In this document: one piece after another, positions 3,997 through 54,114 of the stretch
Layout: every line of letters begins with the position of its first letter
Numbering within the stretch: position 1 is the stretch's first letter
Origin: Mariannaea sp. PMI_226
Taxonomy: Eukaryota > Ascomycota > Sordariomycetes > Hypocreales > Nectriaceae
Reading direction: 5' to 3'
NCBI GenBank assembly: GCA_024336345.1
Contig: JANFOG010000017.1
Coordinates: 248,001-312,000, forward strand
Length of the DNA stretch: 64,000 nucleotides
Notes under the pieces: generated by a model
The model's database searches: none
Seen by the model: only the letters and a program-made list of their open reading frames with translations
What the model was told of the DNA's origin: nothing
Position numbers and translations under genes: made by a program

Positions 3997-5127
3997 TTAT
4001 AACATTTGCTCGCGGGATATGGCCTATGAGATATGTAGTTAGGAAGGCAGAGCGTTATGTGAGCGGAAGGTCTTAGCTGTAGTGTTATAAGGATATATAA
4101 CAGCCGTTCAAAGCCAGTGACCCAGGGTCAGGGCTAGAATCCAGACCCGTCTGCACTAAAAGAATGAAATTTTTTATATAAACACTAAGTTTTCTTAGTA
4201 GTCTTTAGAATCTGGCTGCATACTTGGGTTGGTTCCCTAGTTATAAAGTCTTAATTGAGAAGCTTTAGTATACTGCCAACTATATTAAGAAGGCAAACAA
4301 TTAATAATCCAGGGTGAAAATATAGTAGCTGGATTAGTCAAGATAGCTATTAATTTAAATTACTTAACCTATATTTCGCACTATCTGTCTCTTTTGCGGC
4401 CTTGCTGTCGGTCAGCAAGTAATGCATGGACGCGTGAACGCTTCCCTATTGCGAGATTTTCAATGAGGTAAAGGGCATAGTGTGTGGTTGAAGACCATGT
4501 GATCAAGACTTTTTGGTTGGTCTTCACTGTATAGTTGACTCTGTATGTATAATACCAATTGCTATTAATTTAGAATACCATAAGAAGGTACTAGATATCG
4601 TTCTAGACCTTAATGAAAGGCTATTTACTTATGTGTGTGTGTGTGTGCGTGTGTGCGATGTGTATGAGGGAAGAATGACAATATAATAAGATTGTCCTAA
4701 ATCGTTTCCTGATCTAGTATAATTATCTTAGGGTTTGGATTGGGGCTAGTATTACTATATAAAGCTTATTTGCTCTAGTATTTCTAGTTTTCTATCGTAC
4801 ATTATAGCGTTCTAGGAAATAGATAGAATTCTACAGCGCTACTAGTCTCGCGTCCTTTTTCCCTCAAAAAGCCGTCCCCTGCTCAGCCTGCCCAATCAAT
4901 ATCTTGTCTCATCCTTTTTCACGTCAATCCCGCTCGGCCCCACACAAGGGCCGCGAGCCGGGGGACATTCTATTACCTACAGCCTTTTTCATTGAAAAAG
5001 GACCTCCTTAATTTTACTGCGTTTATCGAGTGCCGTACGCCCTATCTATACTTGTACGGGAGAATGAATGATATCTCTCATTTGCATCACAACAGCATTT
5101 AAACCTTAAGAGACTATCATCATTATC
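3997..5127. other. AT-rich intergenic with a microsatellite and a hairpin
   Basis: No gene. A (TG)n microsatellite lies at 4632-4655. A perfect 8-bp inverted repeat with a 3-base loop (CCTTTTTC/GAAAAAGG) lies at 4983-5001, about 130 bases before the start of the giant helicase reading frame. Confidence 0.6.
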
Positions 5128-8100
5128 ATGCCCCTCCCTGCGTTACGGCCAGAGTCCGATATAGGCAAGCACTCGCCCCTGCAACTGGCAACGCCGCCGG
5201 CTACGAGCTCGCCCCCTCCTTCTTATAAGCCGGTGAGAGACGGTCCGCTCGAACCATGGACTTCGCCACACCATCCAGCACGGGGACTCTATGACCATAT
5301 ACTCCACGCCCAGGAGATTGCCGAGGATAAACGTATACGACTAAGTGAGCTGCGTGTGCAGCAAGAGGGCCAGGAGCACTCCTGTCCTAAGGATAGCGAG
5401 ACGACGCCTTGGTTAAAGCATACAGAGTGGCCGCAACGGTTTTGTAACCGACCGCTTGATATCATCACCGCATCTACAAGACTGCCTGTTCGGGGCACCT
5501 ATATATATAAGGAGGATCTTGTGCTTGGGAAGTGGAGAGGGGAATTGCTACGCAGCACAGCAGCAAGCGAAGCCCGGATGCGAGTGCTGATACATGCTGT
5601 AGACGACATGTTTAACCGGGCCGAGGATACGCTCGCATGCACTCCCTACCAATCGCGATGCTGGCTCACGAGCTACCAGCAGCGCGTGTTCCGACATCGC
5701 CCCCTACGTGTGATGTGAGCTGCTACAGCTCGAGGGTATAAGTCGAAGTGGAAGAAGTTCATCTATTACATATTCCGTGCTTTCGAGATGAGCCCATTAT
5801 TACGCCGGGATATACATAACGTGCCACTGCGTGGCGATGACATGCAGATGATGAGGCACATATTGATCTTGGCATCAAAGATGGTGAGAGCTAGAGAAAA
5901 GGGCGACCAAGCTACGGGCGAGAGCGGTGAACCTCACGATTGCGAAAATAGTGATGATGAAGAGGAGGAGGACAGCCAAAGCTATAGTGGCAGTGATTTA
6001 GATAACCAAAGCGAAAGCGACAGCGAAATTGACAGCAACAGTGACTACACAGATGATCGAAGCGATAACGACAATGAGAAGGAACAGGATAGCAGCGATA
6101 GGTCTCAGGACGAAAACAATGAGGAGATAATGCAATCAGGCTATATCTCGGACCTTAGGGGAAATCAGGCCACCTTCAGCCTTCCCCAAGGTATCCGTCT
6201 GGAGTTGTCAGAGGCTTTATTGCAGCTCTCGATGATGTTCTGGACCTACCAGAGCCAAGATGGAGCCATGACAGGCTCTACTATCGTACACTTTGCAGCC
6301 GTTTTGGGTATTCACCCATCGTCCTTGGCATACCGCAACGCATACGACTACACCCCGGATCTCGCGGCCCTGGTCTGGGTTGGCCGGCTGTTGTTCCTCG
6401 AGTATAGCCTACCGAGGTTCAGCTACGATACGCTGGTATACCGCTGGCCGTGCCGAGCTGCATACCCGTCACATCCGGAGCGCCTAGAGGCGATTCGGAC
6501 GAAGTATATGCTTAGGGGATGCTACTCACCGCTGGCCGAGTTGATCGAGCTTAAAGCTTTCGGCAAGACTATATTGCGGAGGGAGGGGGCGCGCGCGACG
6601 CTTACCTGGGCACCGGATGGGGCCTCGTTCACGATTGGCAATCACAAAGTGATACGATTGTCCGAGTTCTGTATGACGTATCGGGCAGCCATCGCACAGG
6701 TCCAGGAGTTAGTTGCCGAGCTGATGCTGGGTTGGGAGCCTGTAATTAATCTTTCTACAATTCGCGACGACCTGACCTGTCAGACGCCTGGATGGAGTTT
6801 CCTTGATCACTCGGAAAACCTCCTATCAGGGACATACAAGGCGATGGCACGTCGTGCTTGGTCATCCACATTCCGCGGCAAAGCACTGGCTGAGTCAGGT
6901 CACTGGCTACCAGGGCTGTGCTTAGCTTACCTAGAGGCAGGAGCCAAGATGTCCAAACGGGGCTTCTCTGCATTCCACATCACGTCCGGGCTTCCGGGTC
7001 GGGCTACGGAGACCACAGGCATCCGCTTCCGCAATACCAGGTTGGCCATCAGAAATATGTACATCCGAGAAGGGCAGGTCATGATCATCATCAGCTACAA
7101 CAAAGCTCGCGCCTCAACCAATCACGCATTCTATGTTGTCCGTTACCTGCCAGATGAGCTCGGCATATCGTTTGTGACCTATGTCGCATACATCCGCCCG
7201 TTCCTGGACTTCCTCGCCACTCAGCTTAAGCTGCCGCACTATCATAGTAACGAATTTCTCTTCTCAGACCCTAGGCACAAGGGGAGGCATATATCTCCCT
7301 CGCAGGCGACAGAGGCTCTCAAGGAACTCACTCGAACTTTGCAGACACCATGGACCATTCGGCTTTACCGCCAGGCGGCGATCGCTATTGCAAAGCGTCA
7401 TATTCGTGACCTGATCAAGAAGAGGAACTGCTACCACCCGAGCGAAGGTAGCGATCCGATTCGAGTTCTGGCGGCCGGAGTTGGACACCGGCCAAGGATG
7501 CTTTTGACAGGCTACGCCATCGACACAGCTCTCCCGAGTCGACTCCAGGCTGAGCTCCTCGAGATGTACCACCAGCTATCGACTTTATGGCAGAGCTGGA
7601 ACCAAGAATACTATAACCGTCATTGTATAGCAAAGGAGAGTGCAGAATCTGAGGGTATATCACAACATAGCCCAGCAGGGGTATGGACGCCCAATCCAGG
7701 GCATCAAAAGAAAGGACAGGAGACAGTTGTTAGATATGAAGTGCCACGAGAAGAAGTGAAAGAAACTAGTGCGAGCTGTGTTACCCGCGATATCCGATCG
7801 ACCTCTGAAGTCATGACGACGCAACTGCCCCCAGGCTTTATCTATAACGCGGAGCATCAGATACTTATATGCGTCGCATGTAAGTCTGCCATTAGCCCGG
7901 GGGAAAAGCCACTTTACAGCCACCTCAACCGCACCCACCGTATCCTAGGCCCTACCTGCAAGGCTTATATCCAGCGCTTTAGTACCCTCCAGCTCTTGCC
8001 GCTGAAAGATCTTGTTCTTCCACGCGAGAAGATCCCAGCTATTCCCGGCCTTCGGGTTTTAATAGTATTTCGATGTAATGTCTGCCAGCATTTAACGTCA

Positions 8101-11100
8101 CGTTGGGACTCTATTCTTGATCATATATCAACACATAAGCTTGGCATGCGTCCTTTACTGGAGGATGCTGGTCATGGCCGAGCAGATCGGGAGCCATGGC
8201 TAGTCTATACTGGATTTCCAATGCACCTACGGGGGCTCCGAGACACCGAGATCAAGTCATCCTTCAAGCTACCCCCCAAGAGAGATATACTACTTGGTGG
8301 TGGGGATAAAGCTGGCGGCAATGGGAGCAGTCATCATGACGATAATAACCACAATGAAAACGAAAACGATATCAGGCGCATATTGGACGCGGCGGAGGCT
8401 CTACTTAGGAGCGCCTACATGCTGGCATCGGACAGGTCGCAGGATCGGAAGATGACGCACCAGCGCTCGCAGACACTAAATGATTTCGCATGGGGTGCTG
8501 GCAAGAAGGGCAGGGATATAGGCTTCCGCAACTTCAAAAACGCATCAACACTCACGACATACTTCAATAAGATGAAAGAGCTGCTGGTCTACTACTATCG
8601 GGTAGTATATCGCGAGGAGGGGCACTTCACCCGAGAGGGGGAGGACCAGATGATGCCACAGGATGTGATCAAGCCAACCGATAAGCAGCAGCAGGCAATG
8701 GATGACATTTTCAGCGCACTACGGGAGGAAGAAGATAAGAGCAGGGTCGAGAAGGTTGGAAGAGGAGGCAAGAACAACGGAGTTAAATACCAGGCCAGGA
8801 ATGAGGTGAAAGATGAGGGGGTTGGCGGTGACCACGAGTCAGGGCTGATCTGTGCAATCCGGAGGTTCTATGTTGCACTGATTTGCCATTCTGTCGGGAG
8901 CGTGCCTTTCCGGTCGCCGGTGATCAGCTTTTGTGCCATGCTAAGCCGGAAGTCGCTGAAGAGCAAGAGCGGCAATGACAAGAACAACGGGAAGGGCACG
9001 GGTAACGATAAGTTGGACGAGGCCGCACGGCGGCGGAAGAAGCTCAGCAGCTGGGACGACCCTGGGAATTACAATAGCAGTCTGTCGGCACTGGTGTAGA
9101 CAGCGCAACTTCTCCTGTTTGAGGCTGCGTGCTTCTATGAGAGAGATGACGAGGACCGGATTCCTGGTCTGCTGGAGAGGCTATGCAGAAAGTTTATGCA
9201 TCAGAGGGAAGAGACGGCGTTCGGCCATATCTTGCAGTGGCGGCTCTACCTCTCGACGGTGGCAAGGTCGGCCATCTCCAGGAACCAAGCGCGTTGGTCA
9301 CTAGACGGCCAAGAGATTGATTACCTAGGAACAAAGCTGCACATGAAGCATATATCGCAACTGATCATATCGGAATATAAACGGGCTCGCTCGCTGCTCT
9401 ACGATGATTTGCTATTCAGGGCAAACGATATCATACCAATTGAGGCATGGCGGCTCCACGACGATCTAGATGCTGAGGACTATGGCGGATCGTGGCTGAC
9501 AGATAAGAGAAACGAGGAGTTGCTCTCCGGCACACACGATGCCTTGCTCCGGCAGATCGAGCAGAGAGCGGAGCTGCGACAAGTCTTCGTGCGGAATGAG
9601 GGAGACGACACAAGCGGTAGCTGCGAGGGAAGGAGACTATTATGTCGACAGGCGATGGCTGTGTACGAATCCCACGCACAAGAGTTTCTGAAGTCGATGA
9701 TCACACTGAAGCACGTCTCGCCAGCGCCTCCGCTAAGAGCGCCAGAGCTACTTTCCATAACGTACGCCAATAGAGGCCGGCGTCGCAGCATACTAATATG
9801 GGAGAAGATGGTCATGGTATATGTACGGTACCATAAAAGCCAGGAGCAGACTGGCAAGGAGACGGACAACATCCATTTCCTACCGCCACCGATCGCTGAC
9901 CTCTTGTTGATATTCCTAGCAATAGTGCAGCCGCTACGGCAGATGTTCTTACGCCAGGTCAAGCCTGGGGCGCTCCTGTCGCCGTACCTGTGTTCGACGC
10001 TGGACGGCGAGGTTTGGGGTGATGAAATGGTTTCGAAGTGCCTTAGCCAGGCGTGCGGGCGCGCCCAGGTGCCCAAGTTCAAGGTGGCCTGGTGGCGACA
10101 GGTCGCAGCATCCATTACGAAGGAGAAGTTCACACCCAAGGAGCGGGCCAATTTCAACCTCCATCGCGGCGCCGGAAGTGGTCGAGGAGGAGGAGCCGAT
10201 GGCCGGCCTAGCGGTGGCGAGCAATCATTCGTTCCGAACCTTCAACCACGCATACGCGGGCTCAACGACGCTAGTGATGAGCACGCTGCTCCACCGCGCG
10301 CACCGGGCATCGCTGAGTTGGCAAACATTCTTCCAGGTCGAGGAACTTCTGACCCAAGAGATAGCTTGCCATAGCCGGAAGCACCCGCGGTCCACCACAG
10401 AATCGGAGGCATCGGGGATGCTGCGCGCTTGCAAGAAGACAAAGTTACGCACAAGGCCATCACAAACCGCAGACGGCCTGGAGACGATAGCCCGTACGCT
10501 CTATAACAACCCAGACCTACAACTCCGGCGCCCAGGACAGCGAGATGCCATGCTAGCGACCATGGGTGCGAACGCGGCGGAGCAGGTTGTGGTTGTGCTA
10601 GCTACAAGTTCAGGCAAGACACTGATTGCGATGGTCGGAGCGGCGCTTGAGGGAGCCGGGACAACGATTATGATATTGCCAGCGGTGGCCCTGAGAGGCA
10701 ACATGCTCAACTGGCTAGACAAGGTCGGTATCAAGACTATGTTGTGGGTTTCGGGTCAGGCAATGAAGTCGGCACCGCTGGTTCTCGTCTCGGCCGAGGC
10801 CGCATGTACGACGGGCTTCCTCGAGTATGCTTACTGGCTCGAGTCCCGGCAGCAGCTAGATCGGATAGTGGTCGACGAGTGTCATCTAACTATCACTGCG
10901 ACGTACCGGAAAAGCATGATGCTGCTTGGATCGTTTGTGCGTCAGGTTCGGACGCAGACTGTTTGGCTCACAGCAACACTTCCGCCAGTCTTTGAGGATA
11001 TATTTATGCGTCGCAACCTCCTGGTACGGCCACGTATAGTCCGGGAATCGACAAATCGGGCGAATATTCGGTATGAGGTGCGGCGCTTTAACGGTCCGGG

Positions 11101-11918
11101 CGGCCTGTGTAAGAGGGCAGCGAGCTGGTCCGCTCATTCGTAGCACTAATAGGCAAAAATGGCAAAAACGGCGAGCACGGCGATGACAACGCACTGGCTG
11201 GGGCGAGAATGCCAGGATTATTGTGTACTGTCAGACGCTGGAACTTATGGGCGAGCTGGCGGACGAGCTGGACTGTCCGATGTATACAGGAGACCACGAA
11301 AGCATGAGCGAGGAGGACAGGGATGCTGCTATCAAGCAGTGGATGGGCCCAACGGGTTCACCAGTGATCGTAGCGACATCCGCGCTTGGAGTTGGATTCG
11401 ATTATCCGTACGTGCGCTGGGTGGTTCACGCCGGCGCGCCACGCCGCAGGATGGATTTCTCGCAGGAGTCGGGCCGGGCAGGCCGGGACGGTAAGCAGGC
11501 AGAGTCAATCGTCCTGTTAAGTGCGGCATGGCAACCGTATGCAGGTGGCCGACAGCCAGCGGATCTAGACGAAGAGTCAATGCAGCTTTACCTAACACAA
11601 CAGCACTGCTCCCGGGCGGTGATGAGCCAGTTCCTAGACAAGAGGCCGGATTGGAGGTGGTGCATAGATGGCGAAGACGAGCTGTGCGAGGTGTGCCCCA
11701 AACACCATACGGAACGGCGGCCAAGCGGCCTTGAGCTGCGTCTACCAGCACCAGATACGAAAGTCTCATGTGGCGGCAGCCCCTCTTGGGGGAGGGCAGT
11801 GGCGGTGGTGGTGAGGAGGCAGTCCGTTGGACCAGGTCGCGTTCTGAGGCTAGAGAGCCGCCATGCTGGCTTCTGCGTGCAGGGCTTGCACAGAAAAAGC
11901 TCACAGGGATCCAATTGA
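5128..11918 (+). pseudogene. Broken giant OrsD/RecQ-like helicase with a putative tyrosine-recombinase domain
   Basis: One ancestral reading frame of about 2,260 codons. The first 1,700 codons share one frame, interrupted only by TGA at 5716-5718 and TAG at 9097-9099. Frame then shifts near 10160, 11105 and 11200. Numbering from 5128: an N-terminal region, an acidic linker (about 270-335), then a domain with GLPGRATE (R625), K659, R745-x2-R748, and GH787 followed nine residues later by Y796, matching tyrosine-recombinase box spacing. Two zinc-finger-like segments follow (C915-x2-C918 with a distal H pair, and a second C-x2-C...H unit near 8071-8140), typical of the OrsD region. The helicase has ATSSGKT at 10601-10621, DECH at 10874-10885, TATLPP, and a motif VI SGRAGRDGK near 11471. 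A cysteine cluster ends the recognisable part. OrsD plus RecQ-like helicase is a known repeated fungal arrangement; the recombinase call is my inference. Confidence 0.8.
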
Positions 11919-12398
11919 CTCCTTGACGGATGTTTTGGCTCGGTTTTGGGGCTTCAATTTCAAAAATTTCGTTCTCGCTGCTTGGGAAGTTTTTAGGTGC
12001 ACTGGGAACTCGTGAAAGGGAGGAGACACGGGAAAATCGGGAAGTCCCACCGCACCGCATCACGTGTCACTTCACCGCCAACATGGGCTAAAGCGCATTA
12101 GGCGATCAAAGACTGGCCAGGTATGACCATCGAATGCAAGAATTTAATAACGTATCCGACTATCCTCTAATTAATCTCAGAGCCCCCCAAAGCTTTCCTA
12201 CTCCTGATACTTGTATCAATTCAGCATCTGTACCAACTTGGCAACTAAAATCTCGTGTCTTCTAATCCCAACGAGCAGCGGGAGTGAGCTTGTGAGATTA
12301 CAAGACCAGGAGAGCTCTCAGCGACAAGTTGGGACGGTCTTGATGCCTCTACGGGTTTCCATCCTCGCCGTTTTTGTTGTACTTCAGCCGCGAAGACC
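11919..12398. other. Intergenic and promoter side of the next gene
   Basis: No gene recognised. The helicase similarity has faded by 11918. The last 200 bases precede the ATG at 12399 and presumably hold its promoter; I see no definite element. Confidence 0.4.
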
Positions 12399-15128
12399 AT
12401 GGCGGAGCCCGAACCCTCATCCTTCTTGCTTCAGATGAGAGCAATAGGCGAGCGCGTCTCACAAGCCTGCCAACGCGTTGAAGACACGAAGTCCCCTCAT
12501 CTTCAGTATCAAGAGCAGGTGACAGCTCTAAAGGATGAAGATGAGCAGAAGTGGGCGCGTATTCCGCCAAATCCCACTAAGCAAGACTTGAAAGCTGTGC
12601 GGCAAAATACACTGAGGCTCGGTGGTCAGTTGAGAGAACTGGAGCTCAGGCACGCCGCAACTATTGAGGAAGACGACAAGGCGTATAGAGCCTCACTTGA
12701 AGCGCAGCTCAAAAAGCTCTGCAGAGATATGGTCGACATATTTGGGCGATCCTTGGTGATAGAGGCTTTACAGGAATACCCAGCCGAGCTTGTGCTCGGA
12801 TCACAGAGTCCTGGTGGCGGACCCCCTAACCCAACAGAGGCCACATCACAAGAAAACATACAATCAGCATATCAGCGCAATGCTATAGATCCGCCACCTA
12901 ATACTGAGTTTCAAGACGTCAGCATGCAAGAACCCAACAGCATCCAAGACCATGCCACGCCCACCAACCCGTCCGTACCCAACGATGCGCCCTTGCCCGT
13001 CAACCCCGTGAGTCCAAGACTCTGAACCCAACCTCAAGTCCCGCTTCCCCACTAATATTTTCAGAAAAAAAGAAATGGACCTATCGTCTCAGGCCACCAG
13101 AAACGTATTCGGACGGCGGAGGCGGAAAGAGTCATTGATTTTACTGAGATTTTCCAAGATGGCAATGCCGCCATTAAGCACACAATAGTGTCCTTCAATG
13201 ACGAGTGGTATATTTTGTGGTGCGAGGAGCACGGACTAAGCTTTAAAGATAATCCAATCATGTCGGCTGCCAAGCATCTCAACGGAAGGGCTCACGGTTA
13301 CCAGCCCAAAGAGTTTGATGTAGCCATCAAACACCTAGGCGTTCGCGTTCGAAACTGCAACAAGAGGCTCGCGGAGGAGAATAATAGGGTCAGCCAGGAG
13401 GCATATCGAAAGGGCTTTGAGCCGCCTAAATTGAACAAGCTGGATAAAAGCAAAACTTCTGTGTCCATTCATGTTTCGTCGCCTCTGGAAGAAACAGGTC
13501 AGCAGGTAGCCAAGCCGTTGGGCAAAAGGGGGAGCACAGTTGTGAATGGCAGAGGCAAGAGCGGCCGGAGACCGAGAAAAGAATTTGATGGCATTGTTGA
13601 TCCAATTCCAGGTGGTATTTATCTCGGATACTGGCCAAAATCCAAAGAGTGGCAAGCCGTACTCGTTCTCCCCAAGGTTACCACTGAGAACCCCATTGAT
13701 ATTGGGTTTCCAGACACAATCCGAGATCTAGGTCTCACAGAACAAATACCGCAGTGCTACACTTATGATGCTCAGACGGGCATTCTTGATTGGCAAGATA
13801 ACTACAAAGATGGTGGATCTTTGGTTACCAAGCGACAATTTCCCGTCATGTACTTTGACGGCTTGGAATTTCCGAGTAGAAGCTCGGTCGGCTGGATGGC
13901 TGCTAACAATCTTCAGCCTGTTGATACTCAAGATTCCAGCTTCGAGCTAGTTCCTCACTTCAAATCAGTCCGGGAATTTCTAGAGACCCGAAGAAGAAGA
14001 CAGGCCGAGAATTCACATCTGGGGAACACGGAACAAACAGAACTGAGGTCGGACCCGGCAAAGATCCATACTCTGGATTCTATAGTTGCCGTCGCTGAGG
14101 CTTTACCGACAGAACAAAGGCAAGAGAAACAGCCAAACACCCATCCTGACCTCCGCCAAAACAATTGTCAATCAGATGGCCAAGAGGTGTCTGTGCCATC
14201 TGAAGAAAGTCACCTCATTAGAGAGGCGGGCTTATCACCAAATAGAGCAGATCATCACAACCCTGGTGCTAAACCAAAGACCCGCCATGAAAAGCAGCGA
14301 CCTCATGCTCTGGCCACAGGTACCGGTTTCTCCAGCAATGCAGCTTCAGCAGCCACCACAACAGATTTTACGGCTAGCGCCTCGTCCGAGCTAGTCATCT
14401 CGCCTTCTATGTCTTCATCTGCACATCCAGCCACGGTTCCAGCACCACATAACCATGGTGAACATCGCGACTCGCCTAGGACTTCTCGCTTGCTCCAAAA
14501 GGCAATTGATGGCCTTAGATTAACTGCGCAATTTGATCAAGACGGCCCTCCGATGGAAGAAAGCCAAACTCGTCTGGCCGAAAACCGACAAAGGTACATC
14601 CAACTAAACCAAGTCCCTAACGCACTAGTGTCTTGTCAATTCCAGGCTCCTAGCCCAGAGAAAGTTGGAGCGCCCCTCACAGATGCATCACATGCTGTGC
14701 AGCAACATAACAGCAATGATCGGCGCCTTGAGAGACATCAGTGTATTTCCAACGGCCCGACATCCTTTAATAAAAACCACTCTCTTTCATCAAATGTGGC
14801 GTCGACCAGTGGACGTAATCCTCGAGCAGGACCACCACAAGGACCCAGGTCCTCGCCCCCTTACGAGCAAAGCTTCATTCCGCGAGACGCCAACTCAGGT
14901 CCTACTAGTGTAACAACCACGTATCAACTCCCATCCTTCAATCCCATGCCGCCCAATCAGACTACTCCACAGACCTTTCCCGGCTCTCAGGTAACCAGCA
15001 ATACACCTTCAATGAGCCATCAAGAACTTATATCGAGTCCCGATAATCAGCCAGTCACGCTTGCCCCTATCTCTATATTCAACATGCCAACGAAACCAAG
15101 CCTAGCACCACAGTCCGTTAGGAAGTAG
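12399..15128 (+). CDS. Conserved fungal zinc-finger-like protein, function unknown
   Basis: Two exons, 12399-13007 and 13065-15128, flank a 57-nt intron with donor GTGAGT, branch CACTAATA and acceptor TTTCAG; both junctions are phase 0. The product is 890 residues. Residues 1-150 are helical and charged, probably coiled coil. After the intron comes a block with KRIRTAEAERVIDFTEIF, then WYILWCEEHG and AAKHLNGRAHG, a C-x2-H...H-x5-H pattern reading like a degenerate C2H2 finger, then an NCNKRLAEENN helix. The middle carries a compact domain rich in W and Y (YLGYWPKSKEW, YFDGLEFPSRSS). The C-terminal 350 residues are disordered, rich in S, P, Q and N. I recognise this architecture from many ascomycete hypothetical proteins but know no function; nuclear location is a guess. 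It looks intact although it sits between transposon debris. Confidence 0.75.
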
Positions 15129-15730
15129 GCTCCCTACGCAATACCGTATTCGAGGTGTACGACCCCCAACTTGACTTCAACAAACTCGGCATTACAACTC
15201 GTGGGTGGACACTCAAGCTAATTCTGTCTACGACATCCCTCGGAACCCGTTCCCCATCGCGGCTGACCTTGCCTTTTTTCCAACACCAGAGACTACATTA
15301 AAATGGAGGACAAATATATTCAGTAGCATCACGAAACACACTAAATCAATCTATTTCGTATTCAATATTAAACTGCTCTCTTACATATTAAGATGTAGAT
15401 TTTGAACGTGGTCTTGCAGGAAGAATGAGTTGGCTCAGCTAAACTTATCAGACTGTCTAGCATCTCAGAAGTATCAATGATCTAAAGTGCCGTCTTTCTA
15501 AAGTGCATAAGAAGATCAAGCGCTAAATCAAGACTCTTGGTGACGTCTTGGACTGTCTTTTTATCCAACAACCATGAGTGTTCGCTTATTATTCTCACCA
15601 CCACGTCCCGCATTGAACTCCCATGGCATGCTAGCACCTGGGTTTTTCCCCATACCAATTAATCGTCGGCTACCCGGCCGACGTGGACCATGGTCTCAGG
15701 GTATTCTGACAGAATGACTCGTGAATAATT
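15129..15730. other. Intergenic
   Basis: 3' flank of the zinc-finger-like gene; no recognisable feature. Confidence 0.4.
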
Positions 15731-16183
15731 ATGGCTACAAGCGGTGTATTCACAATTGTGGGAAGTGCAGAGACAGTGAAGGGTGAGCTGGGAGAGGCCA
15801 TCTACTTGGAAGGAATCGTTCCATCAACGGGATGCAGGAACTGCCATCTTCCATATGAGTTTTGTATTAGTTGGTTTCGGGATGAAGATGGAGACTGGAT
15901 GCCTCAGGATGTCATGCAACCCCGTTGCCAATACGGATGTCGCCTTCTTACCGACACCATTATCAGATTATACTGTTGTGGGAAGGGTGAGCTTCAAGAT
16001 ATTATATTGGATGATATGGCAGATGATTTTGAGGGAGAAGCAGTAGCATGTTACTTAGCACAAGATATCACGGTTGTTGGAGTGAAACGTTCACAGATGA
16101 TACGAACATTAGGTCTTTTAACAACGAAGATTTTAACAACGAAGATCTGGGAGAGTATAGGAAGATGGAATATATGCAAGTGA
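15731..16183 (+). pseudogene. Fragment resembling the cysteine-rich C-terminal tail of OrsD/RecQ-like helicases
   Basis: A 150-codon frame without a clear independent start. It contains GCRNCHLPYEFC, then CQYGCRLL about 20 residues on, then a hydrophobic helix (TDTIIRLYCCG) and a terminal helix SQMIRTLGLLTTKI. The pattern C-x2-C-H-x-P, C-x-Y and a terminal helical segment resembles the tail of fungal telomere-linked or OrsD-type helicases. The broken helicase gene upstream lacks exactly this tail, but an intact unrelated gene (12399-15128) separates the two, so the fragment is either the severed tail or part of another copy. A short direct duplication (TTTTAACAACGAAGAT) near 16117-16146 sits at its 3' end. 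Alternative: a small independent cysteine-rich gene. Confidence 0.45.
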
Positions 16184-16660
16184 AAGAAATAGTTTCTTTC
16201 AACAGGTCCACTCATCGATTCAAGGGGGGCGTGAATGATTAATATCATTAAGGTTCTTTTCCACGATGCTGAAGAGATCATCTAGGAGATACATCCGCCC
16301 TTCAAGAACCAAGATTGCTCGGGGAAATCCAAGAATATCAGCTCGGTGGGCTGCTGCCTTCTCCTCCCAGTTGGTTACATGATAGCACATCTCGTTGAGA
16401 AGTCGATATCAAAGAATCCGGCAGCCCAACTTAGAGTGAGTTGCCGGTATCAAACGCTGCCTTGTCCTGAGGAGAATAGGCTTTCCTATGGTACAGTAGA
16501 GCAAAAGGGCTGTAGGGTTAGTCTTCAGGACTTCGATGTTCAACTAAGGCAAGAGTAGTTCGCGCTTCCGCTTCTGGTAGTCCGCGCACTCGCATGGCGG
16601 GTGGCCTATGGACTCTTCCACACACTTAACGCTTGTATAGGCGTTTCCTAGCTAATCTCA
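16184..16660. other. Intergenic, left flank of transposon
   Basis: Only small shadow frames; no gene recognised. Confidence 0.4.
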
Positions 16661-16662
16661 TA

Positions 16663-16704
16663 AGTCCCCCCAACCCATTTGGGCCCCCCCCCTTTTGGGC
16701 ATAG
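16663..16704 (+). repeat. Left terminal inverted repeat of pogo copy 1
   Basis: Inverse of 18464-18506 with small differences in the C/G run and near AACCCATTT. Confidence 0.9.
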
Positions 16705-16810
16705 TAAACCAACCTCCTCATCCCCAACCACCTAATATAGTATTATTAAAATCTCAGCCAATTTTATCCAATTCCTTTACTTTTTTTTCCTTTATAAATC
16801 TTATCTTTCC

Positions 16811-18410
16811 ATTCCTTCATATACAAAAGAAGACCTTTCCAATGCCCTTGAGGCTATTGCAAATAATGAGTCAATCCGAAAAGCTGCTGAGAAGTGGGGG
16901 ATTCCAAGATCAACTCTCCAGAACCGTATCAAAGGTCATGAGTCACACAAATGTGCCGCAGAAGGTCAGCAGAGACTATCTCCCATACAGGAAACCCATT
17001 TAGCTGCTTGGATAGAAATCCAAGAGTCTCTAGGGCTTCCTCCAACACATGCCCAAACAAAGGAATTTGCCCAACGCATTCTAGCAACCAAAGGAGATTA
17101 TGAGCCTCTTGGAAAACACTGGATGACTGCTTTTTTAAAGAGGAATCCATCAGTCAGGACTAAGAAGCAAAGATCTATTGATTCCCAGCGAGTTAATGGA
17201 GCAACAGTTCCTATTATTAAAGGTTGGTTTCCACACCTTTATCTTCCAACGGTCCAAGCCATTGAGCCCGAACATTGGCACAATATGGATGAAGGAGGGA
17301 TAATGGAAGGTCTTGGAGTTAATGGGATAGTCCTTGGAAGCTCGGAAACTCAAGCTATTCAAAAGAAGCAACCCGGATCAAAGGCTTGGACCTCCTTTAT
17401 AGAGTGTATCTCTGCTGCCGGCAAAGCCTTATCTCCATTGGTGATATTTAAAGGCAAGACGGCTCAACAGCAGTGGTTCCCTATAGCCCTTGATGAATTT
17501 AAAGATTGGCAATTCACAGCAACTGAAAATGGCTGGACTACAGATGCTACAGCAGTTGAATGGCTTGAGAAGATCTTTCTTCCTCAAACAGCAACCCCCA
17601 AAGCAAGGCTGCTTATCTTAGATGGCCATGGAAGTCATACCACAACAGATTTTATGTTCTTATGCTATAAGAATAATATTCATCTTCTTTTTCTTCCTCC
17701 TCATACCTCTCATATTCTCCAGCCATTAGATCTTGGTGTCTTCTCCTCATTAAAACACAACTATCGCAAGCAGGTTGGATATCTCAGCCTTCTTACAGAT
17801 TCTAGCCCCATTGGCAAGAGGAATTTTCTTCTTAGCTATTCTAAAGCCAGAAATGAAGCTCTTGCTCATAAAAAATATTCAATCTGGCTGGAAGGCAACA
17901 GGTCTTTGGCCAAGGTCCCTCTCTAAACCACTCCTTAGCCCCTTATTGCTTGAAAATAGCAATAAAGGAAAAGAAACACCAAAGCAGACTAAAAATAGTC
18001 AGCTAGAAGGCTTTCCAATTGACTGGAGTGCAGAGACTTCTATTGTCTCATGGTCAACACCTAGGAAATCAAGAGAATTGCAAAAGCAGGTCAAGACCTT
18101 CATAAGGCTTGATGAACAACACCACACCACACAACGCCAGTTATTCCGGAAGATTACTAAGGGATATGAGGAGAAAGAAGCTCTTTTGGCCAATGCACAA
18201 TTAAAAATTCAAGCCTTAGAAGCAAAGCTTGAAGCTGCTAGACCAAGGAAAAGAAGGAAGGTTCAAACCAGCCCCAATTCAAAATTTGCTAACATTGAGG
18301 CAATCTACAAGGCGCAGCAAGAGGCTGCAGGCATTCAAAATGAGAGGAATGATTCAGATGACTCAGATGTATCTAGTATACAAGCGGATTGTATAGAGGT
18401 TCAATATTGA
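16811..18410 (+). pseudogene. Fot1/pogo transposase, copy 1, start lost and one frameshift
   Basis: The frame is open from 16811 to about 17876 and continues in the next frame to the stop at 18408-18410. Order: helix-turn-helix of the psq type (GIPRSTLQNRIKGHESH), Tc5-type DNA-binding region, then the DDE_1 nuclease with NMDEGGIMEG (first Asp), LLILDGHGSH (second Asp) and ILQPLDLGVF (third Asp), then a coiled tail with a basic RPRKRRK patch. Compared with copy 2, whose product begins MPPYTEIDLSN, the start codon here is ATT at 16811. One extra A in an A-run near 17871-17876 causes the frameshift; ignoring it restores the match to copy 2. The protein would bind the TIRs and catalyse cut-and-paste transposition, but this copy is unlikely to make it. 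Confidence 0.9.
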
Positions 18411-18463
18411 AGGCATAAGAGTTATTTTAAATAGGTGCATTGAAATTGATTCTGTTATTTTCG

Positions 18464-18506
18464 CTATGCCCAAAAGGGGGGGGGGCCCAAATGGGGGTGG
18501 GGGACT
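18464..18506 (-). repeat. Right terminal inverted repeat of pogo copy 1
   Basis: Inverse of 16663-16704; ends in ACT followed by the TA target duplicate. Confidence 0.9.
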
Positions 18507-18605
18507 TACCTTGCTGATCTTTACGTGACACCCATGTCCACTCAAACTACCATTTTGTATGGGGACCAAAAACAGGCCGGCCCTCGTACGAGTGTAAGAA
18601 CATTA

Positions 18606-18654
18606 AGTCCATATACCCACATTTCGCCCACCCCCCCTTTTCGCCCGGGCAAAA
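18606..18654 (+). repeat. Left terminal inverted repeat of pogo copy 2
   Basis: Inverse of about 20614-20662; contains TTTCGCCCACC and TTTTCGCCCGGGC. Confidence 0.9.
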
Positions 18655-18702
18655 TCCACTAGACCAGCTACAATATACCAACTTCAAATAGCTCTCCTGC
18701 CT

Positions 18703-20511
18703 TCAATATTGAACCTCTATACAATCCTCCTCTATAGTAGATACACTAGAGGCATCTGAGCCATCTACAGTAGTTTGAGCCCCTAAAGCTTCCTGTTGCG
18801 CCTTGTAGATATCCTCAATGTTAGCAAACTTCGAATTGGGGCTAGTTTGGACCTTCATTCTCTTCCTTGGTCTAGCAGCTTCAATCTGGGCTTCTAAGCC
18901 TTGAATTTTCAAACTGTGCATTAGCTAGAAGGGCTTCCTTCTCCTCATATCCCTTGGTAATCTTTCTAAATAGCTGGCGTTGTGTGGTTTGGTGTTGTTC
19001 ATTAAGTGTTGGAAAATCCGGGGATCCCCCTTCTCTTCAGGATCCAGACTGTTAGTCTGAAAGTCCTAGATTTGAAGTTCAAAGTCCTAGATGAAATCAA
19101 CTAGAGATATAAACCCGAGAAGAACTCTCATCTCAATAATTAACAATCAAGTTCAATAAAATATATTTTTCACCCAGCACTACTGCGCAATATAAACAAC
19201 ATTAAGCTGAATGAAGGTCTTGACTTGTTGCTGTAGTTCCTTGGATTTTCTAGGCGTTGACCATGAGACTATAGAAGTTTCTGCACTCCAGTCTATTGGA
19301 AAGCTCTCTAGTTGACTATTTTTAGTCTGCTTTGGTGTTTTCTTTGTGCTATTGCTATTTTCAAGCAATAAGGGGCTTATCAAGGGTTTGGCTAGAGATC
19401 TTGGCCAAAGACCTGTTGCTTTCCAACCAGATTGAATATTCCTAATAGAAAGAGCTTCTTTTCTAGCTTTATAATAGCTAAGAAGAAAATTCCTTTTGCC
19501 AATTGGGCTAGAATCTGTAAGAAGGCTAAAAGATCCAATCTCTTTGCAATAGTGGTGTTTTAAGGAGGAGAATACACTAAGGTCTAAAGGCTGAAGGATA
19601 TGAGAGGTATGTGGAGGAAGAAAAAGAAGATGGATGTTATTTTGGAAGCATAAGAACATAAATTCAGTTGTTGTATGACTTCTATGACCATCCATAATAA
19701 GGAGCCTAGTCTTCTTTGCTGTTGTTATTGGTATGCTTGGAAGAAAGACCTTTTGGAGCCATTCAATAGCTGTATTATCTGTAGTCCAATTATTTTCAGT
19801 TGCTGTAAATTGCCAATCCTTAAATTCATTAAGGTTTATAGGAAACCACTACTGTTGAACTGTTTTGCCTTTAAATATGACTAAAGGAGGTAAGGCAACC
19901 CCAATCGCAGAGATACACTCTATAAAGGAGGTCCAAGCCTTTGAACCGGGCTGTTTCTTCTGAATAGCTTGTGTTTTGGAACTTCCAAGAACTAGCCCAT
20001 TGACTCCAAGACCCTTCATTATGCCTGCTTCATCCATATTATATCTGTATTGTGGCTTAATGGCTTGGACCTCTGGAAGATAGAGGTATGAAAACCAACC
20101 TTTAATAATTGGAATAGTAGCTCTATTGACTCTTTTGGAGTCTATAGACCGAGACCTTTTAGTCTTTATTGATGGATTTCTCCTTAAAAAAGCAGCTAGC
20201 CAATATTTCCAAAGTGGCTTATAGTCTCCTTTAGTTACTAGAATGCGCTGAGTAAATTCCTTGACTTAGGCGTGTGTTGGAGGCAGCCCTAGAGCCTCTT
20301 GGGTTATTACCCAAGTAGCTAGGTGATTTTCCTGGATTGATGAGAGTCTCTGCTGGCCCTCTGAAGCTTGTTTATGTGATTCATGCCCATCAATGCGGCT
20401 TCGAAGAGTTGATCTTGGAATCCCCCAATCAACAGCAGCTTGACGGACTGACTGGCCATTTGCGATAGCCTCAAGGGCATTAGAAAGGTCAATTTCGGTA
20501 TATGGAGGCAT
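18703..20511 (-). pseudogene. Fot1/pogo transposase, copy 2, nonsense codons and LTR insertion
   Basis: The gene starts at the ATG at 20511 (MPPYTEIDLSNAL) and ends at 18703. It has the same domain order as copy 1: helix-turn-helix (GIPRSTLRSRIDGHESH), NMDEAGIMKG, LLIMDGHRSH, ILQPLDLSVF, and the tail ending CIEVQY. TAA at 20268-20266 replaces a CAA that copy 1 keeps (THAQ versus THA-stop). TAG at 19851-19849 replaces CAG (QQQW versus QQ-stop-W). Both are C-to-T changes at CpA. The solo LTR at 19007-19201 splits the coding sequence after FIQLN, and the region between the LTR and 18921 has a further frame change. The catalytic aspartates survive, but the gene cannot be expressed whole. Confidence 0.9.
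19007..19201. mobile_element. Solo LTR (195 bp) inside pogo copy 2, TSD TTAAG
   Basis: Starts TGTTGGAAAATCC and ends ATATAAACAACA, the TG...CA ends of an LTR with a 5-bp inverted terminus (TGTTG/CAACA). TTAAG occurs immediately before (19002-19006) and after (19202-19206), a perfect 5-bp target duplication. There is no internal retroelement sequence, so it is a recombination remnant. A second copy is at 25534-25734. Orientation cannot be fixed from the LTR alone. Confidence 0.92.
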
Positions 20512-20613
20512 TAAGAAATAAAGAATAAAGTGGAGAAGAAATAGAAGCAATTGGATAAAAATTGGTAGATATATTGTCAATATAAATTGGGTGGCTGGGA
20601 ATAATTGGGAGCA

Positions 20614-20662
20614 TTTTACCCGGGCGAAAAGGGGGGGTGGGCGAAATGTGGGTATATGGACT
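20614..20662 (-). repeat. Right terminal inverted repeat of pogo copy 2
   Basis: Inverse of 18606-18654, followed by the TA duplicate. Confidence 0.9.
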
Positions 20663-20664
20663 TA

Positions 20665-21139
20665 GAGCAGGGTTCCTGACCGGTAGGGAGAGAGTCAAAA
20701 GGGATGCTATAGCAGAGCTTACAGAGAGCCATATTTGGGCGATAATATGATATGAGGGCAGGCGATATTCAGAAACATGGTGAAGTCTGAGAGGAGAGTA
20801 TCATGACTTCAACTTATACCACGGGGCAGAATCCCACGTGGCGGATCCGGTGTCTTAATTTTCCCTTAGCTCTTCTAATTGGCCACGTCTGGAGGCATTT
20901 GGCCCTGTGTGTGTGTACTAAAAGGAAGTTTGTATCTAGAGCCCTTATTCATAGCAGAGCTTATTAGTAAGCCCAAGATATCTGATGGCGAGCGATAGGA
21001 CTCTGTGTACCTACAGGTCTAGCTAGGCGAATCCCCCTTAATGCCAACGGTTAACCTGGATTTACGTAAGTATTTCGAGTTCCAATTAATAAGCTGATAT
21101 ATTTTAAGTGGTGCTACAAGTAAAATCTAGCATGTAGCG
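20665..21139. other. Intergenic
   Basis: Right flank of pogo copy 2; no gene or clear repeat recognised. Confidence 0.4.
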
Positions 21140-22309
21140 GCTGACAGGCTATGATGACTGGTTACAGGGACAATGTAGAATTAGAATTAGAACTTATTAC
21201 GCCCGGTGGCATATTGCCAAAGGGCACCTTACCGGACACGAGCTCAACCAGGGGAGCCAACGGGAACGGCATCGCCGATATACTCATCAATGGACCTGAA
21301 CTGTGGGATATCTGAGCTAGACTAGATAGACTCCTGCCGCCGCATGCCCCTAGGGAGGCTTGGGGCGCATAGCGCTCCGGCGTTAAATATACCAGCCAGC
21401 CAGCCAAAAGGGCACTAATTGCTGATTCATACATACATATCTCAAATTGTGTCCTTGTCCCCTCAAGCCCATTTTGTGTCATACATTGCCCAAACTGTGC
21501 CTGCATGTCCTCAAGCCCATACCATACCCTGCCATGCTTTGGCCAAATTTTGCACTCCTCTCGTCAAACCCTTGATATGGCTGCTCTATGCTTGTGTCTT
21601 ATTGACAGTATAGACCATGTCGTCAAATCATGCATTGTATCAGCACTAACGAGCTTGTTCTAGCGCCTCAACCCTATGCCGGTTAGATCCCTTCACATTT
21701 TAGGTTCCTAAAGTGACTAAGGTTTCCTAGTGCTCATCAATGGCGCGAATTTGAGCCCGGCATGAGGTCATAAGGGGAAATGGGGTTAGAGTAGTGGGGA
21801 AGATGTGCAGTGGGACGCTAGCATGGGTATTATCAGTCCAGCGATATCCCTGTAGCTATCTCCATTTTTCTCCATTTTTCTAAGGGTGATTATCCGTTCC
21901 GGTTGACTGGCAATCCTTACAACGTTAATCCACTTTCATACAAGACCACATGGAAGATAGGGCTTCTGTGGCAATACGATTCGATGCCTAAGGGATAGGT
22001 AAAACGGGGACTTGCTGGAAAATATTGGCTAATACTCTGTAAAATAGGGAGTGATTAGTAAGCGATTGGGTGTTAGGTTTTGACGCGTACCGGCAATGCC
22101 GGCTGTGTCTACTTATTCGTTTTGCATTAGCAGATGCTTCTATTTTAGTATAATTGTTAATTATGAGAAAATGGGGAACACTAAATACGAGTGGTCCTGC
22201 AATATCTGCGCTTCTATCGCTAAGATGGTCGGAGGAGGTGTCCATTTTTATTGTCGATTAATCTATTGACCGGCAAAATGGGATGCTAACCAAGTTTTAA
22301 GGCTAGCGG
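21140..22309 (+). repeat. Left copy of a diverged direct repeat (partner 33880-34434)
   Basis: Patches match the partner in the same orientation. Examples are the TTAGAATTAGAA/GCCCGGTGGC segment near 21180-21205, ATTGCTGATTCATAC near 21418, CTCAAATTGTG near 21440, and GATATGGCTGCTCTATGCTTGTG near 21573. The left copy also has an internal near-duplication, the phrase CCTCAAGCCCAT occurring near 21461 and 21510. No intact gene. Confidence 0.65.
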
Positions 22310-25039: not shown

Positions 25040-27109
25040 GCTTTATTGGCCCTAGCGTGGTCAATTCCGAGCGGAATTCAAGAATTGGGAATGCTTCCCT
25101 TCAGACTTCCATCATCTGTTCATGTGTCGTCTCACGATCAATGGCCAGCTGCTCCGGAAAAACCATGCTTGCGTAGAGAAAGCCAAAGATCTCCTGTTGG
25201 ACTTGCCGACTTCGGCATAAGAAATGCTACGGTGGATTACCCTTATGCGGAGTCTGCTCCACGCTTGAGATTGACTGTCATTACGATGCCGACAGTTCAG
25301 ATTGAATGACAGCGGGGAGCGGCAGAAGCAGATTATGCAGCAGATTAAAGCTCAAGTCAAGCAAAAATGCGAAGAGGCGCCGCAAAATTGCATTAATGGA
25401 GAAGATTGTGGAAGAACTTTCAAACACGCCCAAGCACGAACAGATCTTGCCAACTCCCAAGCCCAATTCCTCTTCCATTCGACCTATTCAGCTTCGGGAG
25501 TCGAAGGAGCCCAGGAGGCCCAGCCCTCAGACCTGTTGGAAAATCCGGGGATCCCCCTTCTCTTCAGGATTCAGACTGTTAGTCTGAAAGTCCTAGATTT
25601 GAAGTTCAAAGTCCTAGATGAAATCAACTAGAGATATAAACCCGAGAAGAACTCTCATCTCAATAATTAACAATCAAGTTCAATAAAAAAAAATATATTA
25701 TTTCACCCAGCAATACTGCGCAATATAAACAACAAGACCTTCCCTATCGGATGGGATCTCTGGTTTTCAGTCCGATTCAGATTCTCCTGAACGCTTTCCA
25801 GCCCTCAGAGAGAAGCCTGCTCGGCTCGATACATCCCCCAAGCCAACTGCGAAGCCATTATGCCAGGACCTGGGACTGGCTCTGAGACCCCACGGTCCGA
25901 AAATGATATGGCTTTCATCATTGGGTATCTTGATTATATTTTGCTCAGACTCTTTCCTCTCTACACACGTCAATTATCGATGGCGGTCGCAGCTGGGTGC
26001 TAGTTCTGGCTACGAAAAACAATGGCTTCTTTCGCGGCATTGTTGCCTTATCGGTGTGTTTCTTCTCCATTGTTCCGGTCAGCCCAAATCCAGCTCATAA
26101 GGTTTGCGCTGAGAGCATTTGGAAAGAGCTCCATACACAGGTGGCCTCAGCTCTATTAACTATCCAGCGCGACCTGATAGCTGCTGACGGACGAGGAGCT
26201 GGCGCCTCTCTCTTAGACAGCGTGTACCTAATGGCAAATATTGTCCAGTATCTCAATTTTGAGATTGCCATTAGGTCTGGCAAGTGGAAAGGTCACCTTA
26301 CAGCCGCCACTAACTTGTTCAAACAAATTCTCCAGGTGCATGGCTGGGCCAATGTTAGTAAAAGCATCCGAATAGTTCTGAGGAACCTGCTGGATACCAA
26401 CCCTGGACCAAGGCCTGATGAACCAAACGCTGATCAAGGCATCTTCAAATTTTTTTCTTCTGTCCTCGTTAATGATATGATTGCGAGCACATCGCTCGGC
26501 CAGCCGCCGAAACATAAAGCATACTATTCCCAACTAGAGGGAGGTGACAGACCTCCGGTATTGAGGACTGAAGACATTCTTGGCTGTGAGTCTTGGATAT
26601 TGCTAAGAGTAGCCGATATTGCTACTCTTCATGATTGGAAGAAGGAGCTTTCCAAGATAGGTGTACTAAAAACAACCAACATACTTTCTCATGCAACAAG
26701 TATTGAGAATCGAATTCAGGATGGTCTGAAAAGGCTAGACAAGCTGGATGCAAGTCGCGGCAAAGATAGCGTGCCAAACCTGAAGACGTATTTGCAATAC
26801 CCTACTTTCCCCTATGATCTTGGTTCGTCCATCCGGCAAGCAATGGACGACATGACGAGCATTTGGTCCTATGCTGCTCACACATATTTGTTAGTCGTGA
26901 CGCAAGGGTGGGACTTGTCTGATACCCCGATCCGAACGAACACGAGGAAGTCAGTGCAGCTTTTCCAGAAGATATTCTCCCCCTGCTGGCTGCGCTGTCT
27001 TGTATGGCCAATTTGTATTAGTGGATGCGTTGCTGTGAATGATGATAAGAGGCAAGCGTTCCGTAGAATTGGGAGCTCAATGCAAGCCTTGCAGGCATTT
27101 GGAACCTAA
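25040..27109 (+). pseudogene. Zn2Cys6 transcription factor, left copy, broken by stops, a solo LTR and a frameshift
   Basis: Close relative of the intact gene at 31053-33122. From 25060 the frame gives NSER, then VVSRSMASCS, an in-frame TAG near 25172, then the zinc cluster CWTCRLRHKKC...CGVC...C with all six cysteines kept. TGA near 25297 follows. The intact copy has Gln (PMPVQRQRK) and Trp (DWMDNG) at these two places. After GPRRPSPQT-like sequence the gene is interrupted by a solo LTR at 25534-25734. The following 170 bases are shuffled or frame-shifted, and a frameshift near 25978 leads into a 370-codon frame to 27109, matching the Fungal_trans_2 region until AFGT, where a premature TAA removes the last 40 or so residues. 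Not functional as a regulator, though the C-terminal frame is long. Confidence 0.9.
25534..25734. mobile_element. Solo LTR (201 bp) inside the Zn2Cys6 pseudogene, TSD AGACC
   Basis: Nearly identical to 19007-19201, with the same TGTTGG start and ACAACA end. It differs in an A-run near 25685 and at a few single bases. AGACC flanks it on both sides (25529-25533 and 25735-25739). The high similarity of the two LTRs implies recent activity or recent amplification of the parent retroelement. Confidence 0.93.
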
Positions 27110-33122: not shown

Positions 33123-33166
33123 GAATCGTGTAGCGCGCTACCCAGGTTGGGCTTACTTCCATCTTA

Positions 33167-53300: not shown

Positions 53301-54020
53301 GGATGCGAGCTCGTCTAGTTCTAGTGGGTTCGAGGCGGCGATGGGGATCGCCGTCGATCCCAGCTCTACGATTTCGACGAAGCGCTTGAGTTCGTCGTCT
53401 GTTGTTACCCGGATTTTGCCTGGCTGTGTTGGGGCCGGCTCGACATTTGGGAGCGTTAGGCTAAGGGTGAAATGATCAGAGCTGGTGGCAAGGTGGTCCT
53501 CAACAGTGGCTTCAGCGAGAGGTACATTCGAAAAGGCGAGGTCGATGGTGTTTCCATGCGGGTTCGTGGGGATATCTGAGGTGTTCAGCAGGCCGAGGCC
53601 ATTTTCCGATGCCCAGGAGGCAATCTCGTGGCCGCGGTCCGTTGTTGGGCCGGTCTGCCATGTATGATGTCTAGCGTTGAAGTCGCCTGCCACGAGGCAG
53701 CGATCAGGAATCGGCCATTGCAGCAGAGTATCCAGCGCATCCCTTTCGTCATTCTGGCGGTAGAAGTTGACTATTGTTGTATCGTTGACCGTAAGCCACA
53801 AGATATCGCGGCTTTGGTATGGTCGATTCTGATCTGCCGAGAGCTTAGAGTCTCGGCGGACGTACGACATGACTCTAGGTCGAGTGGAATTGCTGTTCCA
53901 GGCTTCGACTGGAGAGTAGGTGTCATATGCAGGATGGGTCTTCGTGAGGCAGCGGGAGTTTGCCGTTGTCGTCCATGGTTCTTGGAGGAGCACAATGTCG
54001 TATCGTTCAGAGTCTGCCAA
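50385..54020 (-). CDS. LINE ORF2: AP endonuclease, reverse transcriptase, RNase H, intact
   Basis: An uninterrupted 1,211-codon frame. The endonuclease covers about residues 1-200 (VLLQEPW, AGDFNARH near 111-118, TSSDHF). The frame stays open upstream to about 54090, adding KTLRVFQANVGK without an ATG, so true translation probably begins there by coupling to ORF1 (stop at 54115-54117). Reverse transcriptase: FRAAEVVMIAKPG, LSCLGKGLERLVARRL, TMDIQGAFDTV, GLPQGSPVSP and FGYADDTA (catalytic Asp pair near residue 628). RNase H: VYSDGS (near 935), DAEATGALEGL, VCLDNLAAA and WIPGHTDIPGNEQADKLA (near 1043). A CSCG...H...C knuckle ends the protein. It nicks target DNA and copies the element RNA in place (target-primed reverse transcription). 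All catalytic residues appear present. Confidence 0.93.
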   Translation of the reverse strand: MADSERYDIVLLQEPWTTTANSRCLTKTHPAYDTYSPVEAWNSNSTRPRVMSYVRRDSKLSADQNRPYQSRDILWLTVNDTTIVNFYRQNDERDALDTLLQWPIPDRCLVAGDFNARHHTWQTGPTTDRGHEIASWASENGLGLLNTSDIPTNPHGNTIDLAFSNVPLAEATVEDHLATSSDHFTLSLTLPNVEPAPTQPGKIRVTTDDELKRFVEIVELGSTAIPIAASNPLELDELASTLVSLLQSAAKAAGRPARKGARNAPWWTEECALAAAGYRAIRRPYPLGFNQEVQIAKRDFRRVVRRAKRLYWRNLINSFSDSSSVFRAVRWLRSPGAFQPPPLQVDDVVYETQLDKANALRRATLERRTAEDDIQDPWIEVSPHKTIPFPQEITLEEAQDATLRTGNTSPGPDNVTVKLLIVVWHNIGTHVRRLFEGCLAIVHHPKPFRAAEVVMIAKPGRRDLTTPRAWRPISLLSCLGKGLERLVARRLAWACIHHGVLHPQQAGALPKRSATDLVAALVHDIEEAFARKKVATLVTMDIQGAFDTVLRNRLILRLREQGWPEHFARWAGSFMDDRSACVRYQDTITPLSPLQCGLPQGSPVSPILFLLYTEPIYRLSNPQGRFGYADDTAILCVGDTIEETAAAASRSVEEMVRWGAINGVSFDPKKTEVMHFSRSKLETAPAIRHGDVEKHPEAAMRWLGIWLDSSLSFRVHAEKWTAKSQAVAYHLRGLTNTIHGPLPSALRSAVRACIEPVLLYGTEVWYPGATRPRWDQPSKDRPSSIQHLLQRMNKAIVQFMRAILPVWKTTPIAILHRESGIPPITQLLEARRYRFSARLKSLDEAHPLAKRTPPPRQPTYHQLIKRKHQTPTESSFRTRLRRTNELLAPCPRPALMQKCFGRGQDTPLQTAPKDESAEAFLQCIETVHSTTWIVYSDGSLSSGGAASYGFAIHQKGLSICDGSGRLGPAEVFDAEATGALEGLKAALNLPGSAARDIVVCLDNLAAATCLRGTPSDSSQAVFVEFQALAKSHGATQVRWIPGHTDIPGNEQADKLAKAASSLPEPEGAQPTLAYLRKVARQKPKEAFQTWWTTSVPEQYKRLNLKATIRCPPELSLPRAALHHLLAARSLHGDFAAYHERFNHDDARVTCSCGRRKAPDHIFYCRKVPRRCRIRLVPSPTVTVNLAIGRNFEKYTKVAKSSGFFEKICSRY

Positions 54021-54114
54021 TGCAAGGGCACAGTCGTGGACCGGGGGAACCTTGCCGACGTTGGCTTGAAAGACCCTGAGAGTCTTTTTCTCACATCTTC
54101 GTGCTCGCGGGCGC

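Follow-up and report, generated by a model that had tools for sequence, protein, structure and literature searches.

A tyrosine-recombinase-like core in the telomere-linked helicases of Mariannaea sp. PMI_226 and in a decayed gene fusion

Can a helicase gene of a fungal chromosome end carry a recombinase of its own, and what would such a protein do there? The question is raised by a locus at 5128-11918 of a 64,000-nucleotide stretch of Mariannaea sp. PMI_226 (GCA_024336345.1, JANFOG010000017.1:248,001-312,000; C9:248001-312000 of genome G000), which is called the window here. RecQ-like genes at fungal chromosome ends have reportedly been described since 1998 by Sanchez-Alonso and Guzman (cited in PMC7473861), and it has been proposed, without a mechanism, that they help to maintain telomeres. 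We know of no described eukaryotic mobile element in which a recombinase is fused to a RecQ. An earlier note on this DNA had read the locus as one protein with a tyrosine-recombinase (YR) core next to OrsD and RecQ-like parts. Our analysis makes it fairly probable that telomere-linked helicases (TLHs, with subfamilies TLH-I and TLH-II) are OrsD-YR-RecQ proteins of chromosome-end elements with a precise left end, and that the window holds a decayed fusion of a gene for a recombinase-like core (YR-A) and OrsD with a TLH. A third family, OrsD-YR, is related to both.

The open frame at 5719-9096 runs uninterrupted through the OrsD zinc finger, and the codons proposed as catalytic (R 7000, K 7102, R 7360, R 7369, H 7486 and Y 7513) were confirmed exactly in this single frame, with nine codons from H to Y as had been claimed. 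The other spacings in YR-A are 34 codons from R to K, 89 from K to the second R and 39 from the second R to H. Conservation was tested within the Mariannaea genome and in one further locus, L041 (JAPYPR010000044.1), and catalytic-type R, K, second R, H and Y were found in order. The Tyr and Arg columns, on which the recombinase reading had been staked, are kept, and the reading is not refuted. In an alignment of five rows (the YR-A of the window, two OrsD-YR proteins, TLH-I and TLH-II), where identity to the window row is about 23-29%, R159, E162, K193, R282, H321 and Y330 are among the invariant columns. Across 11 rows, 9 of the 10 with a letter at the Arg column have Arg, and 10 of 11 have the expected residue at each of the Lys, second-Arg, His and Tyr columns; the exceptions are all in degenerate copies, L038a at four columns and L039a at the His. 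Four rows were dropped before a hypergeometric count (L035 as a near-duplicate of L034; L038a, L038b and L039a as degenerate or partial), leaving seven with full-length alignment (winA, L034, L036, L037, L023, L029 and L041), of which winA and L037 come from decayed genes. Five of the six positions named beforehand sit among the 16 invariant of 335 gap-free columns (P 7.5e-7).

The sixth position, Arg 7360, is not conserved. The R-L-Y-R proposed as box II is conserved at R 7369, while Arg 7360, in the place of the His, is replaced by Q, S, A or K in the remaining rows; the column thus holds R, Q, S, A or K, and no HxxR is formed. The box II His is absent; as this position varies in some accepted YRs, the core is filed as YR-like.

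L041 keeps all six residues (R, E, K, R, H and Y), its YR is followed directly by RecQ, and an OrsD-TLH start lies downstream. Its contig is titled as an Erythrobacter metagenome-assembled genome and codes for fungal-type OrsD and RecQ genes, and it is probably contamination of a bacterial reference genome. The two fungal-type TLH genes of L041 stand head-to-tail.

Profile comparison points in the same direction as the residues. In hhalign, a profile of nine rows scored 37.3 against 17 real YRs (P 5.4e-5, probability 66.6%), above the maximum of 23.6 reached by 200 column shuffles (mean 11.5) and above eight unrelated profiles, some of them built on one to three sequences (at most 20.4). The likeness to bacterial and phage YRs (Xer, integrases) lies around box II, with the box I Arg and the His in register in the extended alignment, and is detectable by profile-profile comparison only: single-sequence, hidden Markov model (HMM) family and PDB searches with the YR region gave no match. 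Two AlphaFold models of the region were poor (predicted local distance difference test, pLDDT, 43.6). From such a model, Foldseek returned unrelated proteins, a list in which missing YRs carry no weight, and VIA-align against 986 chains ranked Cre at the top, tied with unrelated rows. Scans of viral sequences with YR, TLH and OrsD-YR queries found no relative, and a near-match search of a plasmid collection with window 5128-7620 found no match. Judged by sequence, the core appears to be a divergent, YR-like tyrosine recombinase.

The same core recurs in the helicase genes themselves. Open TLH frames read OrsD, recombinase core, RecQ; P0002 (L023, near the C19 end) and P0003 (L029, C2 end) are open frames with OrsD, a middle region, DEAD and Helicase_C. 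Since the helicase part carries its own YR core, the open TLH frames likewise combine YR and RecQ. The OrsD-YR family (P0001, P0004) has OrsD and the middle region without a helicase domain in frame. For the helicase of L029, the top PDB match is Bloom helicase, and the match to TIGR00614 (E 3.5e-37) is under the curated cut-off and level with DpdF.

Searched against its own genome, the window locus gave 42 matches, many close to contig ends. Near-identical OrsD-TLH sequence was found at 13 places: 12 lie no more than about 5 kb from a contig end, and the one on C19 lies about 15 kb from an end. The genes stand in tandem, head-to-tail, and the TLH elements read toward the contig end. These helicases are therefore RecQ-type, multicopy and located at chromosome ends, as expected of TLHs. 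No run of four TTAGGG units was found anywhere in the assembly, and the contig-end stretches examined held no TTAGGG run except one interstitial match in L033.

At the window locus itself, the following features were placed.

4983-5001 (+): hairpin CCTTTTTC-ATT-GAAAAAGG, 8-bp stem and 3-nt loop, 5' of the YR-A gene; it resembles the offset-19 hairpin of TLHs
5128-5718 (+): 5' coding segment of the YR-A gene, ending at the in-frame TGA 5716-5718
5719-9096 (+): long open frame with a core-binding-like start (by eye), YR-A, OrsD and then the N-terminal part of the TLH
6526-7608 (+): YR-A, tyrosine-recombinase-like core (R 7000, K 7102, R 7369, H 7486, Y 7513)
7837-8136 (+): OrsD zinc-finger domain PF12013 (Pfam, E 5.3e-13)
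8148 (+): fusion point, start of TLH-I homology by comparison with TLH copies
8148-11918 (+): decayed copy of TLH-I; open copies at contig ends share about 94% identity with it
9217-10360 (+): YR-B, second YR-like core, inside the TLH (R 9736, K 9835, R 10096, a frame change, H 10226, Y 10253)
10532-10996 (+): DEAD domain of the helicase (domain search; RecQ type shown on the relative L029)
11205-11492 (+): Helicase_C domain (domain search)
8148-22296 (+): block common to the window and the C19 end, 96.1% identical over 8148-13362, where the TLH accounts for the differences, and 99.8% over 13363-22296

Of the earlier picture, a conserved recombinase-like core beside OrsD and RecQ-like parts is borne out by the kept R, K, R, H and Y and by the YR-like profile; an intact window protein is not. 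The single protein of 2,260 residues does not exist as such, because 5128-11918 is broken by TGA 5716-5718, TAG 9097-9099 and later frameshifts, and the copy must be regarded as decayed, not as a self-contained giant protein. Homology to TLH-I begins abruptly at 8148, and about 1 kb of the TLH-I 5' end (L023 3771-4778) is absent from the window; the fusion at 8148 is in frame, with the recombinase-OrsD gene upstream and the TLH downstream. On this comparison of sequences, the locus is a decayed chimera of a YR-A and OrsD gene with a 5'-truncated TLH. The same order, a YR-OrsD gene 5' of a TLH, is seen at L037, where the TLH belongs to the other subfamily and the DNA of the YR gene is only 60% identical. 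Repeat-induced point mutation was rejected as the cause of the decay, as the substitutions between the window and C19 go in both directions.

The comparison with C19 also records exchange between copies. Between 8148 and about 11,900, every 250 bases hold 1 to 22 substitutions; the next stretch, up to 13,362, shows zero differences, and on to 22296 the identity is 99.8%. Over the compared stretches, the C19 TLH does not differ from the C8 and C6 copies (100% identity). Because the C19 TLH matches C8 and C6 while its flank matches the window, TLHs exchange sequence between chromosomes, by either element activity or homologous recombination.

Within the common block, the open reading frame at 13056-15128 was considered as a constant partner of TLHs and rejected, as C19 is the one other locus among those compared that has it, apart from a short match in L034. 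It encodes 690 residues without a confident Pfam match and is identical at the C19 end where compared; the match in L034 is a stretch of 46 residues, 50% identical, at a distance of about 1.6 kb on the left side of the OrsD-YR element there. Two inverted pogo/Fot1-like transposase copies (by eye) at 16736-18410 (+) and 19180-19848 (-), with 79% DNA identity, are also present at the C19 end. Elsewhere in the window, large open frames at 50385-55850 (-) resemble by eye a Tad-type long interspersed nuclear element (LINE) retrotransposon with endonuclease, reverse transcriptase and RNase H, and a Zn2Cys6-type regulator (by eye) at 31053-33137 (-) has a diverged partial copy at 25934-27109 (+) with 72-75% DNA identity.

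If TLHs belong to elements, their ends should be visible, and the left ends are sharp. BLAST between copies showed that homology begins at one point while the flanks differ. Nine TLH-II copies begin (C)TAGCATATAG, four TLH-I copies begin CTAGCTGTGATG and three OrsD-YR copies begin CTACTGTACAAAG. The start is at CTA in 14 of the 16 copies and at the next base in two, with TA preceded by C in 14 and by A in two. As L024 and L025 have a common flank, the 16 contexts represent 15 distinct junctions. The genome search returned, for TLH-II, nine full left ends together with older relics on C5 and C11 that start within one base, and for TLH-I, four left ends and one solo end of 57 bases on C22. For OrsD-YR it returned two copies on C9 and two on C13, one C13 copy aligning 5 bases further left, as well as a relic on C22 aligning from 4 bases further in and solo left ends of 73 and 58 bases on C13. 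Two solo ends of different families, C13:317098-317155 (58 bases) and C22:2788376-2788432 (57), run from the terminal base, as if cut at an equal distance. In the OrsD-YR left end at L034 2040-2119, 28 bases recur in imperfect form about 50 bases further in, perhaps as repeated binding sites.

The earlier note had called for precise ends and empty sites; left ends and left-hand unfilled sites were found, whereas right ends and complete empty sites were not. Unfilled sequence is readable for L028 and L030 because L028, L030 and L033 occupy one subtelomeric repeat at different points, and it reads CACC/CTC for L028 and ATAT/CTAAGG for L030. The OrsD-YR of L039 sits in a TLH-II tail, whose unfilled form in L029 is AAAGC/CTCTTC. 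CT is present at the join in all three unfilled sites, of which the left halves are seen, at the place where the CTA of the element starts. In the stretches examined, the left end did not recur on the right side in either direct or inverted orientation, and the TLH-II tail was not found beyond the inserted OrsD-YR.

Both TLH subfamilies have a hairpin with an 8-bp stem and a 3-nt loop exactly 19 bases in from the left end, and between TLH-I and TLH-II four of the eight stem pairs are changed on both sides with pairing kept (covariation). OrsD-YR ends are without this hairpin. The folding energy of the 80-base ends is only mildly better than that of shuffles, and a dyad protein site is equally possible as a true hairpin. 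The hairpin at 4983-5001 may mark a left end; hairpins with a stem of at least 8 and a loop of 3 number five in the window, counting this one, and no second copy of window 4800-5400 was found in the genome.

Several known systems resemble these genes in part. The fungal TLHs (UTASa/UTASb of Ustilago, TLHcr of Fusarium, telomere-associated families of Colletotrichum) likewise combine a RecQ-type helicase with OrsD at chromosome ends in near-identical copies. In Ustilago, the available part of one report places OrsD 'core' units close to telomeres or on the 5' side of helicase units, the latter resembling the position of the YR-OrsD gene here (PMC10532341). Precise hairpin-bearing left ends, found here, are not described in the accessible portions of the fungal TLH literature, and in subtelomeric RecQ helicases no further domain was found according to the available text of PMC7473861. 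A YR in TLHs is likewise unnamed in the accessible parts of PMC7473861, PMC10532341, PMC5576322, PMC12857005, PMC7593156, PMC8381367, PMC3212892, PMC10799480, PMC8022731 and PMC13066641. Among the matches listed from the open-licence literature, whose titles and abstract starts were covered and which leaves subscription papers and preprints largely outside, it is not reported.

Among recombinases, the 17 reference YRs are at most 446 residues long, a length at which a RecQ fusion is not expected, unlike in TLHs. Starship captains are fungal YR genes at the left end of their element, reading inward. This genome has separate loci of the captain family DUF3435, and the TLH and OrsD-YR proteins do not match its model (no match at E up to 10 for five members of A2 and at E up to 1 for five longer frames). 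In Cryptons, as here, a YR is the recombination enzyme, and terminal inverted repeats are absent. They carry R-H-R-Y according to the available part of PMC3212892, in whose main text the word helicase occurs 0 times. The proteins described here differ from Cryptons in having lost the box II His and in carrying OrsD and RecQ as fused parts, with RecQ encoded in one frame with the YR.

What, then, does the core do? One answer, which we hold to be unlikely, is that it is a YR relative no longer cutting DNA, domesticated as a DNA-binding module that aids a host telomere-maintenance RecQ in the manner of DUF3504/Crypton-derived host genes, with TLHs spreading by homologous recombination between chromosome ends. 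This would agree with the lost box II His and with the homogenised copies (C19 equal to C8 and C6, and about 11,900-13,362 identical to the window), yet the remaining catalytic-type residues, Tyr included, are kept despite the low identity, whereas DUF3504 is without most of its tetrad in the accessible text of PMC3212892. Homologous recombination also does not predict one left base across varied flanks. That some unrelated conserved domain shows the R-K-R-H-Y pattern by coincidence was already disfavoured and is highly improbable, since the count for pre-named positions and a profile score far above the controls stand against it, even with family and PDB searches lacking a match and no confident fold.

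The left end invites a different comparison. Helitrons insert between A and T, their 3' end is a hairpin followed by CTAG, and DUF3505 is an older name of OrsD. Reverse-complemented, a TLH left end likewise shows a hairpin with CTAG after it, and the helicase could be that of a rolling-circle element; two of three helicase and DUF3505 telomere-associated repeat families of Colletotrichum higginsianum bear Helitron-class names in the available part of PMC5576322. A Helitron-like element is quite improbable all the same, as the base outside CTA is A in only two of 14 CTA copies, against the A/T insertion rule, OrsD-YR ends begin CTAC, the hairpin lies upstream of the gene and the helicase matches RecQ best. 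A search of the genome for Helitron_like_N gave no match, and control genomes were silent too.

The reading of TLHs as OrsD-YR-RecQ proteins of elements has as its computed basis the domain order, the R-K-R-H-Y conservation, the YR profile match, left ends in varied flanks, the CT and the tandem genes. Under it, OrsD would bind DNA near the element end or the hairpin, RecQ would open or extrude the hairpin or drive copying, and the YR tyrosine would cut and join at the left end with a core around CT, and this cutting and joining would place the element at chromosome ends and beside other copies. We take it as likely that the YR is active in intact copies; for its making the precise left end, we give an even chance. 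Still more tentatively, and as less likely than not, TLHs across fungi could be the enzymes of a distinct class of YR mobile elements colonising chromosome ends. In these, a single protein would bind through OrsD, open a terminal hairpin through RecQ and rejoin DNA at CT cores through the YR, and the elements would thereby cap ends that erode and pile up in tandem. TLHs with a sharply defined end may be mobile elements, and the conserved recombinase core and the precise end together supply an enzyme and a DNA substrate that can both be tested, and a reason why TLHs lie where they do and in such numbers.
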